This document shows positions 1,533 through 52,385 of a stretch of 64,000 bases of DNA, piece after piece (positions within the stretch are counted from its first letter, which is position 1; every line of letters starts with the position of its first letter). The DNA is taken from NCBI GenBank assembly GCA_022709905.1, contig JAKLHY010000003.1:1-64000 (forward strand), read 5' to 3'. Under the pieces are notes generated by a model. The model searched no databases. It saw nothing but the letters and a program-made list of their open reading frames with translations, and was not told the origin of the DNA. This stretch comes from Verrucomicrobiota bacterium. GTDB taxonomy: Bacteria > Verrucomicrobiota > Verrucomicrobiia > Limisphaerales > UBA1319. The translations under genes were made by a program, and so were the position numbers.

Positions 1533-2483
1533 ATGTGTGGAGCTGAATGCCACGGGGGAGCAGAAGGGACAAGCAGAGGCCGACGGCTCCTGTTGATCGA
1601 TGGGCATGCGTACGCGTACCGGGCGTTCTTTGCCATCCGGAATTTGAATGCGCCGGATGGCCGGCCCACGAATGCAATTTTTGGATTCGTGAAGATGTTG
1701 GGCCGTCTACAAGAAATGCTGCGTCCCAGCCACTGCGCTGTCGTTTGGGATGGCGGGATCGACCGACAACGATTGGAGGTCCATCCGGAATACAAGGCCA
1801 ACCGGCCGCCCATGCCGGCGGATCTTGGTAATCAGATTGAGGCCATCGGCCGATTCCTTGTTGCCACTAAAACTTGCTCGGTTCGAAGGCCCGGCGTCGA
1901 GGCTGACGATTGCCTGGCTAGTCTGACTCGGCAGGCCGGCAAGTTGGGTATGCCTGTCGTCATTGCCAGCAGTGACAAAGATTTCATGCAACTGGTATCA
2001 GACACCGTTGGGTTGATTAATCCGGGTGACATGGAACGGGGAGTATGGAGTATCGAGACCGTGGTGGAAAAGACCGGCGTCCGACCCGAGCAGATTGTGG
2101 ATTGGCTGAGCTTGACGGGGGACGCCGTTGACAACATCCCGGGAGTACCGGGATGTGGTCCCAAAACTGCTGCCAAATTATTGGCGCAGTTTCAATCGTT
2201 GGACGAGATTTTGAAACGCAGTGATCGGGTCCAGCCGGAACGTTTGGGAACCGAGGTGCGACAGTCGGCGGAAAGGCTCTTGCGTAACCGGGATCTGATC
2301 CGCCTTCGGGATGATCTGGAAGTGACGTTGGACTTAACCGAAATGGAAATCCAACCGGCGGACAACGCCGAACTGGCGTCGTTATATCGGCAATGGGGCT
2401 TTAAATCCCTTGCGACCGAGGCCGAGGTGCGATGTCAGCCGATGGAGCAAGATTTGTTTGCGCTGGTTCGAGATTCGAGATGA
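1533..2483 (+). CDS. Stand-alone 5'-3' exonuclease (PolA N-terminal domain / FEN family)
   Basis: A 316-residue protein equal to the 5'-3' exonuclease domain of DNA polymerase I without the polymerase. It would remove RNA primers and flaps. Acidic metal-binding residues are all visible: Asp23 in LIDGHAYAYRAFF, Asp73 in VVWDGG, the VEADD group (123-126), SSDKD (146-150), and TGDAVDNIPGVPGCGP (195-210), which is the helix-hairpin-helix DNA-binding element. YKANR near residue 90 is the family's helical arch start. The first 16 residues are poorly conserved-looking, so a later start is possible, but the core begins at RRLLLID. Its stop overlaps the next ATG (ATGA), so the two genes are probably co-translated. 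Confidence 0.9.
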   Translation: MCGAECHGGAEGTSRGRRLLLIDGHAYAYRAFFAIRNLNAPDGRPTNAIFGFVKMLGRLQEMLRPSHCAVVWDGGIDRQRLEVHPEYKANRPPMPADLGNQIEAIGRFLVATKTCSVRRPGVEADDCLASLTRQAGKLGMPVVIASSDKDFMQLVSDTVGLINPGDMERGVWSIETVVEKTGVRPEQIVDWLSLTGDAVDNIPGVPGCGPKTAAKLLAQFQSLDEILKRSDRVQPERLGTEVRQSAERLLRNRDLIRLRDDLEVTLDLTEMEIQPADNAELASLYRQWGFKSLATEAEVRCQPMEQDLFALVRDSR

Positions 2484-3037
2484 ATGAACCCATGAATAGT
2501 CCGGCAAATCGAAGTGGGTGGTGGCCAATGCCGGTTCTTTGGCTTTGCCTGAGCCTGATGCCGGTATTCGCCGCCGACCAGGAGAACGTTGGCGCGGAGA
2601 AAGCGACGGGTATCGTCGAGAAACAGCTTCCTCCCGAAAAGAATGTTGCCAACAAACTGAAACTGATTGTCGGAAAACAGCCCCTGTGGGTCGAGGTGGC
2701 GATCACTCCCGCGCAACAGCAGCGCGGTTTGATGTATCGAACCAAGATGGAAGAAAACGAAGGCATGCTCTTTGTGTTCCCGACACCAAGAAAAGCGAGT
2801 GTTTGGATGAAAAACACCATCTTGCCGCTCTCATGCGCCTTCCTGGATTTTCAGGGCAGAATACTGGAGATCAAAGATTTGGTTTCGTTGGATGAGAAGA
2901 TGGTTTACTCGAAACAGGCGAACGTCCGGTTTATGCTCGAGACGAACCGCGGGTGGTTTGCCGACAACGACCTTGCCGAAGGCGACTTGGTGGTCACCGA
3001 ACGTGGATCGTTGGCCCAGGCTTTTGGATTGAGATAG
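2480..3037 (+). CDS. DUF192 family exported protein
   Basis: A small protein of the DUF192 fold, whose function is not established. The N-terminus has a Trp-rich hydrophobic signal peptide (about residues 12-31, ending near VFAA). The family core follows: RGLMYRTKMEENEGMLFVF, then the WMKNT motif and LDFQGRILEIKDL. The start at 2480 is chosen because it makes an ATGA overlap with the exonuclease stop; an in-frame ATG at 2492 is also possible. The pairing with an exonuclease looks accidental in function, since this protein is exported. Length of 185 residues is normal for the signal-peptide-bearing versions. Confidence 0.85.
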   Translation: MNEPMNSPANRSGWWPMPVLWLCLSLMPVFAADQENVGAEKATGIVEKQLPPEKNVANKLKLIVGKQPLWVEVAITPAQQQRGLMYRTKMEENEGMLFVFPTPRKASVWMKNTILPLSCAFLDFQGRILEIKDLVSLDEKMVYSKQANVRFMLETNRGWFADNDLAEGDLVVTERGSLAQAFGLR

Positions 3038-3100
3038 AACCGCGCGAAAAGTGAGACTAGTGGACAACACCGATTGGCTTTGTTAGATAGTCGTAATCAT

Positions 3101-5008
3101 ATGTCATCGATCATGCGAATTTTAGGAAGGGTGGTCGTCGCCGGGATTCTGGCGGCGTTGCCCGTTGGTTCCCGGGGCCAATCCGCATATTCCGCCATGG
3201 GAGGGGAATACCTGTTAACCGATCACATGGTGGGCGATCAGGTGCTGTCCTCTCTTGCCTTGGGATCTCGCGGAGGGGTGGCCGTGTGGCAGGATAACGG
3301 TATTGATGGCCATGGATCGGGCATTGGAGCGCAGTTGTTCAATGCCAGTGTGGCCCGGGTTTACAGCCCGTTTCGGGTCAACAGCATCACCAAGGATGAG
3401 CAGGAAAACCCCCAGGCCGCGCCGCTTCGCAATGGAGGGACCGTCTTTGTCTGGCAGGGCGGAAAGACCGGATTCCAAAAGATCTATGCCCGAGTTCTTT
3501 CCGCGACCAACACCTTTTTGCAGACTGAGTTTGCCGTCAGTGGTTTCAGTGGAAACCAGACCGATCCCAGGGTCGCCGTGCTCAAGGACGGAACCGTTGT
3601 GGTCGTCTGGGCTAGCTTTGGTCAGGATGGAAGCCTCCATGGCGTATTCGGTCAGCGCCTCGATGCCAACGGCAAGAAGCTGGGCACCGAGTTTCAGGTC
3701 GCCCAAACCAGCGCCCTGAACCAGCGCAATCCCGCCCTGACCGCCCTTGCTAACGGCGGTTTCGCGGTGGCATGGATCTCTGAATCCCCCAAGGGTGTTG
3801 ATACCCGGAATGTCGCATTATACGGCGTCGACGTCTATGTCCGCCTCTTTGACGCCCAAGGCAAGGCCATAACTCCCGAGACCAAGATCAATACCCAAAG
3901 GGTGATCTGCGCGAATCCTGCGATCGCATCGACGGAGGACGGTGCCATCGCCATCGCCTGGGGGGCCAAGCTGGACCGAATTGAAAATGATAACGCCGCT
4001 ATCAGTAACGGTTGGGACATTGTCACTCGCACCCTGGACGCCAATGGATCCCCAATGACTTCCGAGGTTGTTCTCAATGCGTATCTTTTGGGTGATCAGT
4101 ATGTTCCCCAACTAGCCTCCTATGGGAATGACATCTTTGCGGTCTGGACTAGCATGGGTCAGGATGGATCCTGGGAAGGTGTCTTTGGGCGGTTCTTAAA
4201 GTCGAGTGGTGAGCTGGACGGGATTGAGTTTCAGGTAAACCGGACCATCGTCAGCCGCCAGATGCAACCGTCCATCGCCTCGGATGGTTCCGGCCGGTTC
4301 CTGATCGCCTGGTCGGCCTTTACCGAGGGGGTGAACAGTTTTGAGTTGGTCGGAATCCGATACGGAGCGGCGGAATTGACTCCGAAACCGTCCGTGTTAT
4401 TTGTATCCGCGCTGAGCCAGAGTCGGTTGAGCGTCAATTGGCCCGAAATGGCCGGCTTGCCGGTCGATCATTACGAGCTTTATGTGGATTCGAGCGCCAC
4501 GCCGATCCTGACAACCAACAATCAATACACGGTGGCTCAACTCGTTCCCGGCAGCACTCACAGTTTCCAACTGGCGTATCAATTGACCGATGGCCGAAAA
4601 TCGCCGATGTCCGATCCCATCACTGGAACCACCTGGGGTGAGGATCTGAACGCGGATGGATTGCCCGACGACTGGCAGAGCGCATACTGGGGTAACGATC
4701 CCGCATCGTGGCCCGCGCCAACGGCCGATTCCGATGGAGACGGCGTGACCAATCAGAAGGAGTTTCTGGCCGGAACACAACCCACGGATGCGTCCAGTGT
4801 GCTGAGGATTGATCTCATGGAATCCGATTCCACTTTGCAGCTCATCTGGAATACCCAGCCTGGCTTGGTCTATCAGGTGCAGGTATCGACAAACGTGAAT
4901 ACTTGGGAGAACCTGGGCCAGGCGCGCTTGGCTGTCGGATCCAGTGATTCTTTGAGCGTGGACGGTTCTCAGGGTTTGAATTACTACCGGGTTGTCCGGT
5001 TGCGTTAA
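3101..5008 (+). CDS. Large exported protein with fibronectin-III-like and calcium-loop segments
   Basis: A 635-residue protein with a signal peptide (MRILGRVVVAGILAALPVGS near the N-terminus). Most of the protein is made of repeated beta-rich units with the pattern AVWQDNG / VFVWQGG / VVVWASFGQDGS / IAWGAK / AVWTSMGQDGSW, about 45-60 residues apart, which suggests a beta-propeller. A fibronectin-III-like domain follows (about 425-510), then two Asp-rich loops resembling type-3 thrombospondin or EF-hand sites (DLNADGLPDDWQ and DSDGDGVTNQKEF). The C-terminus is a beta domain ending NYYRVVRL, shared with the gene ending at 9423. An upstream TTG at 3074 is in frame, but ATG 3101 gives a normal signal peptide. 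No enzyme motif was recognised. First gene of an apparent three-gene unit. Confidence 0.75.
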   Translation: MSSIMRILGRVVVAGILAALPVGSRGQSAYSAMGGEYLLTDHMVGDQVLSSLALGSRGGVAVWQDNGIDGHGSGIGAQLFNASVARVYSPFRVNSITKDEQENPQAAPLRNGGTVFVWQGGKTGFQKIYARVLSATNTFLQTEFAVSGFSGNQTDPRVAVLKDGTVVVVWASFGQDGSLHGVFGQRLDANGKKLGTEFQVAQTSALNQRNPALTALANGGFAVAWISESPKGVDTRNVALYGVDVYVRLFDAQGKAITPETKINTQRVICANPAIASTEDGAIAIAWGAKLDRIENDNAAISNGWDIVTRTLDANGSPMTSEVVLNAYLLGDQYVPQLASYGNDIFAVWTSMGQDGSWEGVFGRFLKSSGELDGIEFQVNRTIVSRQMQPSIASDGSGRFLIAWSAFTEGVNSFELVGIRYGAAELTPKPSVLFVSALSQSRLSVNWPEMAGLPVDHYELYVDSSATPILTTNNQYTVAQLVPGSTHSFQLAYQLTDGRKSPMSDPITGTTWGEDLNADGLPDDWQSAYWGNDPASWPAPTADSDGDGVTNQKEFLAGTQPTDASSVLRIDLMESDSTLQLIWNTQPGLVYQVQVSTNVNTWENLGQARLAVGSSDSLSVDGSQGLNYYRVVRLR

Positions 5009-49781: not shown

Positions 49782-49811
49782 TTGACAAAAGTTGCGCAGT
49801 CCTGGTATCCA
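49782..49811 (+). promoter_or_regulatory. Probable promoter of the PEP-CTERM protease gene
   Basis: TTGACA (49782-49787) and TATCCA (49806-49811) are 18 bp apart, with TG one base before the -10 element. Transcription would start near 49818, only a few bases before ATG 49825. Confidence 0.55.
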
Positions 49812-49824
49812 ACTTTCCCAATTC

Positions 49825-50799
49825 ATGAAATTTATTAGTGACGCATACACAAGATCCCGGATGCTTCCAGTTGTCTTGAACTGCCTTTTGTGTGTTCAAC
49901 TCTCCGTAGTCGATGGATCGGCGATTCTTTTCAGTTTCACCGGCGATCCTGCCTATCACACCTCGGCTCCCACTGGAACTCTCAGCGGAAGCGGTTGGGA
50001 ATACGAAGGATCCTGGGGATCATACCTGGGCACGGCGATTTCGCCTTCGCATTTCATTACCGCGACTCATGTTTATGGATCGGTGGGAGATGTGTTTGTC
50101 TACAATGGCAACTCCTACACAACCATTGCCAAACATGTCAGCGCATTCTCCGACCTGACCATCTGGGAGGTTCAAGGATCCTTTGCCAGCTATGCGCCGT
50201 TGTATACCGGCATCGACGAATGGGGCAAAGACCTCATCGTTTTTGGACGCGGGACCCAACGGGGCGCGGCAATCACGGTTGGATCCGAGGAAAAAGGCTG
50301 GAGATGGGGCCAATCGGATGGGGTCCAAAGATGGGGACAGAACACGGTGAGCGGTATCGCGTCAGGGGGAGCCACCCTGGGCCAGTTTCTGGTTGCTGAC
50401 TTCGATCGAGACGCCGGCAAGAACGAAGCCCACCTCTCGCGAGGAGACTCCGGCGGTGGGGTCTTTATCCAGGACGAGGGCATCTGGAAATTGGCTGGGA
50501 TCAATTACGCCGTGGACGGTCCGTTCAGTCTGAACGGGACCACAGGCTCAGGGTTCGACGCTGCCTTGTACGATGCCGGCGGGCTTTACTACTACGCAAA
50601 CGGAACCTGGCATTTACGGGAAGACCAATCCCAGGACATTGCCACTTCATTTTATGCGACCCGCATCTCATCCAATCAAACCTGGATCCAGAGCATTGTG
50701 GCTGTGCCCGAGACCGAGTATGCCACAACAGCGGCATGTGTGGGTTTGGCCGTCTTTGCCGCCTGGTGTCAAAGGGGACAACGGCAGCGCCCCACTTAG
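49825..50799 (+). CDS. Trypsin-like serine protease with a PEP-CTERM signal
   Basis: A 324-residue exported protein. The N-terminal signal peptide is hydrophobic (MLPVVLNCLLCVQLS from residue 13). The chymotrypsin-like catalytic triad is visible: His82 in FITATHV, Asp110 in FSDLTIWEV and Ser209 in SRGDSGGGVF. The C-terminus has VPETE (294-298), a hydrophobic helix and a basic end, fitting a PEP-CTERM exosortase signal. The stop codon TAG (50797-50799) spans the boundary of the foldback element listed at 50799-51071, so the last residues may have been changed by that insertion. ATG 49861 is an alternative start with a longer leader. Confidence 0.85.
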   Translation: MKFISDAYTRSRMLPVVLNCLLCVQLSVVDGSAILFSFTGDPAYHTSAPTGTLSGSGWEYEGSWGSYLGTAISPSHFITATHVYGSVGDVFVYNGNSYTTIAKHVSAFSDLTIWEVQGSFASYAPLYTGIDEWGKDLIVFGRGTQRGAAITVGSEEKGWRWGQSDGVQRWGQNTVSGIASGGATLGQFLVADFDRDAGKNEAHLSRGDSGGGVFIQDEGIWKLAGINYAVDGPFSLNGTTGSGFDAALYDAGGLYYYANGTWHLREDQSQDIATSFYATRISSNQTWIQSIVAVPETEYATTAACVGLAVFAAWCQRGQRQRPT

Positions 50800-51071
50800 G
50801 GTCCGTGCAAAAAAAACTTCCGATTTTGGCGGGAGCGCCGCCGGGTCAGATGCTAGGCGCGTGGGCGGGAGTGTATCCTCGGCGATACTCGACCGTCCAC
50901 GCAACAACGCAGATGACCCGGCGCCGCCCCGCCCCGGAGGGCTGCGAGGCTTTGGCTCGCTGGCTTCGTTACTCCTCGGTCAGAGACCGCTGCGGGTATC
51001 TTCCCTCGTCGAGCCTCGCCAGCGAGCCAAATCCTCAGCTGCAAAATCGGAATTTATTTTTGCACGGACCC
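50799..51071. mobile_element. 273-bp foldback / MITE-like element
   Basis: Terminal inverted repeats of 30 bp (50799-50828 and 51042-51071; 28 of 30 identical) start GGGTCCGTGC. The element is flanked on both sides by TTA, a probable target duplication (50796-50798 and 51072-51074). Inside are two further nested inverted repeats: a long imperfect hairpin at about 50828-50933 (GGCGGG...CCGGGTCA arms and an inner GCGTGG/CCACGC stem) and an 18-bp pair at 50946-50963 and 51019-51036 (17 of 18). There is no transposase gene, so it would move only with help. It lies between two convergent genes. Confidence 0.85.
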
Positions 51072-51077
51072 TTAATC

Positions 51078-52385
51078 CTATTTCGGGGATAAATCGATGC
51101 AGGCGCCTTCCTTGGTGCTGCGGACGTAGAGGCGACCGTTGCTTAGAGCCGGCGTGCTCCAGCACTTGCCCTCGATGGCCTTTAAACGGCCCACTTCCTG
51201 ATACGCCGAAGGTGTGGCTGCCACAAGAACAAGAGTGCCCTGATCATCGAGCGCCAGCAGGTGGCCGTCCGCCAAAATCACATTTCCAGGACCAAAGCCG
51301 TTCTGGGACCATTTGATCACGCCTGATTCGAGTTCGACACATTTCAAGGGGCCGCTCCCGAATTCCTTAAAGCTAAACATGCCATAGAGATGGCCTTGAT
51401 AATAAACCGGTGTGCTCCAGTGATTGGGCAATTCCTTCGGCTTGCGCCAGACCTGTTTGGCGGTCATCTTGTCGCCCTCACGGGCAATTCGAACCAATCC
51501 CGCCCCGACATCGTAACCGGCCGAGCAGTAGACCCAATCCCCTGCGACGACCGGCGATGCGGCTGTGGAAACCTTGTATTCAAAGGGGTATCGCCATAAG
51601 ACGCCCCCCGTGGACGGCTCAACCGAAACCAATCCCGATTGCGCAAAGAAAATAACCTGACGCATCCCCTGGATCGTGGTTGCGATAGGCGTGGCATGGG
51701 TCATCTTGTCATTCTGACCTTTCCAGGCGATCGCCCCGTCCTTTTTCTTCAGAGCGACCAGGCATTGGTCCGAGCCGTTGGCATTGACATAAATGAACTC
51801 GCCTTCAATCAAAGGGGAGGCGGCATTCTGCCAAGGAATGAGCTTGCCCCCGAATTCTTTGGCCAGGTCCTTTGTCCAAAGAATCTTGCCTGTTTTGGCG
51901 TCCAGGCAGTGAAGGACAAGATAGGCGGTGTTGACATAAACCCGGCCGTCCTCGATCGATGGCGTGGACCGCGGCCCGTCGCCCCCTCGATTCTCTTTGG
52001 TGCCAGAATCCCCCCCGCCGTCGTATTTCGCCAGGCCCACGGGTGTCGCCCAGAGTTCATTCCCGCTGGCCGCGTCCAGGGCAACGCAGACCTCCTGGCT
52101 GGAACCATTGGCGTCGCGCCGGATCAGAGTGCAGGCAATGCCTTCCGCCACCGCAAACGAGCTCAATCCATCCGTCAGAGGAGCTTTCCACAGAATTCGC
52201 GGTTCAGCCTCTTTCCAGGCCTTCGATATTTTCTCTGTGGAAATTCCATTGTGAGCCGGGCCTCGGTAGCAAGGCCAGTTTTCGCCAAAGGCTGATGATG
52301 GCGACAGGACAACGCATAAAACGCCCAAGGCGATGCAACACTTGCCGAAATGATCTCCGATCGCAGATAATAACGTCATAATCAT
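51078..52385 (-). CDS. Exported PQQ-type beta-propeller protein (BamB-like)
   Basis: A 435-residue protein with a signal peptide (ALGVLCVVLSPSSAFG). It opens with NWPCYRGPAHNGISTE and has repeated propeller blades with an AxDxxxGxxLW pattern (ALDAASGNELWATPVG, CLDAKTGKILWTKD, SVEPSTGGVLWRYPF, CVELESGVIKWSQNGFG). Resembles outer membrane assembly factor BamB and the many quinoprotein-like exported proteins in Verrucomicrobiota and Planctomycetes. No metal or quinone residue set was identified, so a dehydrogenase role is not supported. The stop is 4 bp from the target duplication of the foldback element. Confidence 0.88.
   Translation of the reverse strand: MIMTLLSAIGDHFGKCCIALGVLCVVLSPSSAFGENWPCYRGPAHNGISTEKISKAWKEAEPRILWKAPLTDGLSSFAVAEGIACTLIRRDANGSSQEVCVALDAASGNELWATPVGLAKYDGGGDSGTKENRGGDGPRSTPSIEDGRVYVNTAYLVLHCLDAKTGKILWTKDLAKEFGGKLIPWQNAASPLIEGEFIYVNANGSDQCLVALKKKDGAIAWKGQNDKMTHATPIATTIQGMRQVIFFAQSGLVSVEPSTGGVLWRYPFEYKVSTAASPVVAGDWVYCSAGYDVGAGLVRIAREGDKMTAKQVWRKPKELPNHWSTPVYYQGHLYGMFSFKEFGSGPLKCVELESGVIKWSQNGFGPGNVILADGHLLALDDQGTLVLVAATPSAYQEVGRLKAIEGKCWSTPALSNGRLYVRSTKEGACIDLSPK

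Follow-up and report, generated by a model that had tools for sequence, protein, structure and literature searches.

The window, a stretch of 64,000 nucleotides from a Verrucomicrobiota genome (G000, assembled into 347 contigs totaling 8.17 Mb), contains a 273-bp element at positions 50799 to 51071. It is situated between two convergent genes, as described in an initial sequence-only reading of this DNA. The upstream gene (49792..50799, plus strand) has no Pfam match, and its TAG stop codon is formed by the TTA duplication together with the first G of the element. The downstream gene (51078..52385, minus strand) encodes a PQQ-type beta-propeller (PF13360). The target is CTTAG, and the TTA flanks proposed by that reading are present as unstranded duplications on the left (50796..50798) and on the right (51072..51074). 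The terminal inverted repeats (TIRs) occupy 50799..50828 on the plus strand (GGGTCCGTGCAAAAAAAACTTCCGATTTTG, where most other copies have GGGTCCGTGCAAAAATAACTTCCGATTTTG) and 51042..51071 on the minus strand. The inverted-repeat search confirms their length of 30 bp with 28 of 30 matches and returns the outermost repeat as 50798-50828 / 51042-51072 (31 nt, 94%).

The interior consists of two capped hairpins joined by an unstranded linker (50929..50944) that contains a small G+C-rich stem. The left hairpin (50835..50928, minus strand; corresponding to L001 1541-1634) scores 44.5 bits and the right hairpin (50945..51036, plus strand) 105 bits with the covariance model R1 described below. The two are therefore inverse copies of one motif, and both stand on the TIR stem. 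The corresponding inner inverted repeats span 50832-50853 / 50909-50930 (22 nt, 82%) and 50946-50964 / 51018-51036 (19 nt, 95%). Both of the further inverted-repeat systems claimed earlier thus exist, but they lie side by side and are not nested in each other. The very stable multi-stem fold claimed for the element is borne out for RNA (z = -11.1) as well as DNA (z = -10.4), with 0 of 200 shuffles equally stable in either case. Mechanically called open reading frames cross the element; judged by its size and copy number, it is a short, multicopy sequence without coding capacity.

The genome contains 102 local matches to the window element, including about 25 full-length copies with 96 to 99% identity and a further group with about 80% identity; in all, it holds about 30 full-length copies plus fragments. 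Of the 31 F1-type elements, the type of the window copy, 26 are exactly 273 bp long. The flanks vary between copies, and a perfect 3-bp TWA (TTA or TAA) duplication borders 29 of the 31 F1-type elements that were measured, so that copies with the same TIRs and different TTA-like flanks, the suggested check, are found. Counting all end types described below, 81 of 85 elements show target duplications (F1, 29/31; F2, 0/1; F3, 13/13; F4, 9/10; F5-type, 21/21; F6, 2/2; F7, 7/7), the element counts being lower bounds taken from fetched loci. The sequence-only reading had named the lack of any other copy and of an empty site in relatives as arguments against mobility. Neither argument holds, as many copies occur in G000 and unoccupied paralogous sites exist for four sister families: F3 (L257 occupied; L005 and L318 unoccupied), F4 (L261; L292), F5 (L288; L324), and F7 (L308; L222). 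These empty sites are other copies of dispersed repeats aligning across the junction, the elements having inserted inside such repeats, and the comparisons are paralogous ones with 75 to 87% identity, all made for sister-family copies and not for the window's own copy. The repeat at L005 26-1127 and L318 2156-2318 (CAGGGACGCAAGAGATCCGGTGAAAGGCAT...), an insertion site for F3 elements, is a distinct multicopy dispersed repeat. The many copies that share these TIRs and are flanked by duplicated TWA support the earlier description of a mobile, MITE-like foldback element with a TTA target duplication. As far as sequence comparison can tell, the window element is a real, multicopy, gene-less mobile element and a non-autonomous MITE. 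Searches of plasmids, phages, and IMG/VR returned no match to the window element or to a 25-nt piece of the cap.

The search for a full-length transposon with related ends, proposed in the same reading, was successful, revealing GGGTCTGTGC... ends together with an ISAzo13-type transposase. Locus L067 of G000 contains a decayed element of 1.96 kb (1747-3705) with CTAAG flanks and related left (GGGTCTGTGCAAAAACAAG) and right (GCACCCGTGCAAAAATTAATTCCGATTTT) ends. Its interrupted gene encodes a PF07592 (ISAzo13-type) transposase (E = 6e-59), which lies between matching TIRs in a TWA target. A relative with 84 to 85% identity over the C-terminal part has an open frame of 396 amino acids, and the named relatives of the ISAzo13 transposase of G000 are mostly from Verrucomicrobia MAGs. 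The PF07592 elements of relatives show CTWAGGG(N)...CAAAAATAACTT ends (L178, CTAAGGGACAGTGCAAAAATAACTTCC; L180, CTTAGGGTCCATGCAAAAACTAATTCCGG) and TWA targets; intact ISAzo13 relatives elsewhere share the TIR pattern with F1, not the exact TIR. Ends matching an autonomous element are accordingly found both at L067 and in the ISAzo13 elements of relatives. This match of the TIRs to ISAzo13-family (PF07592) insertion sequences identifies the window element as a MITE, probably moved in trans. The proposed sequence of events begins with insertion of the MITE, bounded by its 30-bp ISAzo13-like TIRs, at CTWAG with duplication of TWA, where cutting and insertion would most likely be performed in trans by an ISAzo13-type DDE transposase. 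The element also occurs in relatives, one of which, genome G055 (L081, L095, and others), shows about 156 F1-type end sites, and no PF07592 match was found in its assembly, i.e., high-copy MITEs without a detected driver.

The sequence-only reading overlooked that the interior is common to elements with unrelated ends. Part of this interior matches sites in relatives where the surrounding TIRs differ, and in G000 the same layout of 267 to 276 bp occurs with five or more end types that differ from F1. Pairwise alignment of whole cores gives equally high scores for shuffled cores, and the homology of the core therefore rests on the covariance model. R1 comprises 92 positions from 19 aligned capped hairpins and was built without the F3, F5, F6, and F7 elements of G000. 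Of its 26 pairs, 17 have changed on both sides with pairing kept, and the covariation in this one-hairpin alignment is 0.495, compared to 0.150 for shuffled and at most 0.154 for slid alignments. When applied to the hairpins of the omitted families, R1 yields 42 to 91 bits, with hairpins paired minus then plus; complete elements repeat the order of the window element, with the left hairpin on the minus and the right hairpin on the plus strand. R1 matches 136 places in G000. Among 289 genomes sampled within the phylum, it has hits in 20 others, a number that is a floor because no more than 14 candidates per genome were scored. The Rfam search gave no match to the window element and one unrelated sub-threshold match for seven sister-element loci. 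Loci L233, L235, L238, and L240 from other members of the phylum apparently contain a single capped hairpin with still other TIRs.

The other end types are GGGTCCGTCAAGAAA (TWA duplication), GAGCCTGTTTGAAAA (TNA), and GTGTGGTGTTTGCGAAA, CACGACGTCATAAATA, and GACCGGTTGCCATAA (all TA). Family F3 (GGGTCCGTCAAGAAATAAGC) comprises 13 copies, all with TWA duplicated; F4 (GAGCCTGTTTGAAAATTAC) comprises 10, with TNA duplicated in 9, one being TCA. Duplications of TA are shown by all members of F5 (GTGTGGTGTTTGCGAAATACG; 18 copies and 3 variants, F5b and F5c), by the 2 copies of F6, which has the ends CACGACGTCATAAATA, and by the 7 copies of F7 (GACCGGTTGCCATAATAAATTTCC). Several families occur on the same contigs, as on C223 with F1, F4, and F5 elements together, which excludes a mixture of genomes. 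Two of the five other end types match IS630-family ends, and one weakly matches an IS5-type end. The PF13358 (IS630-type) loci of G000 have F5-like (CTAGTCTACTGTTCTCGAAATAG / CTAGTCATGTGTTTTCGAAATAA) and F7-like ends. L315 861-2052 on contig C112 is an IS630-type element with a DDE_3 transposase and ends similar, not identical, to those of F5, and L314 881-3164 on contig C268 contains two opposed PF13358 matches in the 2.28 kb between ends similar, not identical, to those of F7. A DDE_3 transposase between matching ends and a duplication of TA are therefore found for both F5 (18 of 18 copies) and F7 (7 of 7). The PF13340 (IS5-type) locus L317 resembles F4 at the left end only, a search for its right end being negative, and the link between F4 and IS5 is weak on this sequence comparison. 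L315 861-2052 lies within about 6 kb of L317.

Exchange between end families is visible in place. The inner TIR half AAATA(A)GCTATACATTCG is common to F3 and F5b, whose outer ends differ, and L310 1234-1507 on contig C301 combines the left half of an F5 element (97% over 135 nt) with the right end of F7; from these two parts, it is to be regarded as a recombinant of two end families. One structured core thus appears to be coupled to the ends of at least two, and probably three, unrelated transposase families. Since the core is homologous between elements with F1 and those with IS630-type, possibly IS5-type, ends, core and ends have been reassorted, which forms the second step of the proposed history. 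For these two steps together, mobilization in trans by an ISAzo13-type transposase and reassortment of core and ends, we are highly confident.

What preserves the core is a separate question. Of the 92 pairs predicted across 17 differently ended elements, 77 have changed on both sides with pairing kept, although the structures were picked by folding software, which favors paired cells. In a structure acting as RNA, G-U pairs are expected to be much more common than A-C mismatches. G-T mismatches are about as frequent as A-C mismatches in the core (28 versus 23) and in the single-hairpin alignment (10 versus 12), which suggests that pairing is important, or is being corrected, at the DNA level. 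As the third step, the core would be kept for its DNA structure, a multi-branched foldback that brings both ends together at the base of a single stem. This foldback may help any transposase to pair the ends; alternatively, it may aid the survival or excision of the single-stranded element. Such a role of the core in mobility or survival is put forward tentatively, with the odds slightly against it. An ancestral MITE interior without function could instead have persisted while the ends diverged or recombined, with palindrome correction during replication keeping the stems complementary. Template switching can yield compensatory changes, so that those seen here could derive partly from correction of palindromes and not from selection, and the hybrid at L310 demonstrates that recombination between elements does happen. 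However, correction of stems does not explain the unpaired cap positions, which are conserved across elements with different ends, and the length stays at 267 to 276 bp in nearly all elements despite unrelated ends. F1-ended palindromes of about 40 to 50 bp without the core do exist (L065, L064, L076, L077, L078, L079, L080, and L057), most of them with TWA duplications, but the internal junction differs in each, which fits independent deletions and suggests that elements without the core do not multiply. A core without function is therefore considered rather unlikely.

For the very stable fold between convergent genes, the earlier reading had proposed a possible bidirectional terminator. In a broader form, this would make the copies ordinary MITEs with a host role, their hairpin RNA acting as bidirectional terminators or mRNA stabilizers between convergent genes and being retained for this function. 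The very stable fold agrees with such a role, as does the placement of the 53 classified intergenic elements (24 convergent, 24 tandem, and 5 divergent), for which the gene context comes from a simple codon-based gene caller and other CTWAG sites nearby are too few for a firm control. Outside those 53, 12 elements apparently lie inside genes and 20 have too little flank. In about 20 elements, the window copy being one example, the overlap with a gene boundary equals the target duplication exactly. However, CTWAG contains a stop-codon sequence, which alone favors gene 3' ends and may explain much of the convergent placement. The scan shows neither a canonical intrinsic terminator nor a promoter within the window element, and the substitution pattern, in which G-T is hardly more common than A-C, argues against a role at the RNA level. 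Furthermore, of the 57 genomes sampled, no more than 15 gave a BLAST match to the window element or part of it. The terminator proposal is thus not upheld, and a host role as RNA is improbable. In the preferred reading, a fourth step is that insertion at stop codons and in intergenic sites would leave the copies nearly harmless, hence their accumulation. Taken as a whole, this explanation of a MITE mobilized in trans, with swappable ends, a DNA-foldback core, and near-harmless sites, is regarded as probable.

MITEs are normally seen as deletion remnants of, and tied to, one insertion sequence. One of the closest known systems is RUP of Streptococcus pneumoniae, an IS630-derived MITE of 107 bp with one proposed partner, which resembles the window-type elements in being short, gene-less, and intergenic, with IS-matching TIRs, a TA target, and a stable stem-loop (PMC2229807); the elements described here differ in a two-hairpin core combined with several end types. 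The CIR elements of Caulobacter likewise show two arms joined by a linker and a loop with a conserved motif, but the motif is another one (GANTC), and the review describes no such end families (PMC2229807). REP, BIME, and REPIN sequences share the inverse pairs of palindromic units and the intergenic location, often between convergent genes, but REPs are 20 to 40 bp long and tied to RAYTs (PMC3733652, PMC2817692), whereas the elements described here have TIRs of 30 bp, duplicate their targets, and contain hairpins of about 90 nt whose cap is conserved. An origin of the window element as a REPIN or BIME of a RAYT (Y1 transposase), with its inverse hairpins as REP sequences, would agree with the paired hairpins and the 13 Y1_Tnp matches in G000. 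Strong core matches, however, lie near only 1 of the 13 Y1_Tnp loci and weak ones near 1 more, which is about chance level, and the stems are long and variable, with the cap as the conserved part. Together with the target duplications, which are clear for 81 of 85 elements, this association at chance level leads to the rejection of a RAYT origin as most improbable.

The significance of these elements lies in the occurrence, within one genome, of a single conserved and strongly folded core between ends that belong to two or more unrelated transposase families, with a hybrid in place. If confirmed, the lasting unit would be the folded DNA with exchangeable ends, and promotion of transposition or persistence by DNA secondary structure would become testable. 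A more speculative extension, to which we give limited credence, treats the two-hairpin core as an independent genetic entity: a structured DNA module, distributed across Verrucomicrobia, that survives by taking over the ends of whichever DDE insertion sequences its host has active (ISAzo13, IS630, and probably IS5). Its cap would be recognized, in the form of a DNA hairpin, by a protein of the host or of the element. The ISAzo13-family insertion sequences (PF07592) of the relatives examined share the end motif GGG...CAAAAATAA and the TWA target with the window element, which differs in lacking a transposase and in having the hairpin core. Searches of the open-access literature for ISAzo13 MITEs, for reports of MITEs, REPs, or foldback elements in Verrucomicrobia, and for the cap strings found no description of such MITEs and nothing on this family; as far as this literature shows, the elements would, if confirmed, be the first ISAzo13 MITE family on record. 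In genome G007 (L111, L115, L119, L123, L127, and L130-L133), about 35 C-terminal PF07592 matches, mostly at contig edges, carry CTWAGGGCGGGCGAAATAATAACTTG ends; this ISAzo13-type element has apparently undergone recent amplification and breaks the assembly.
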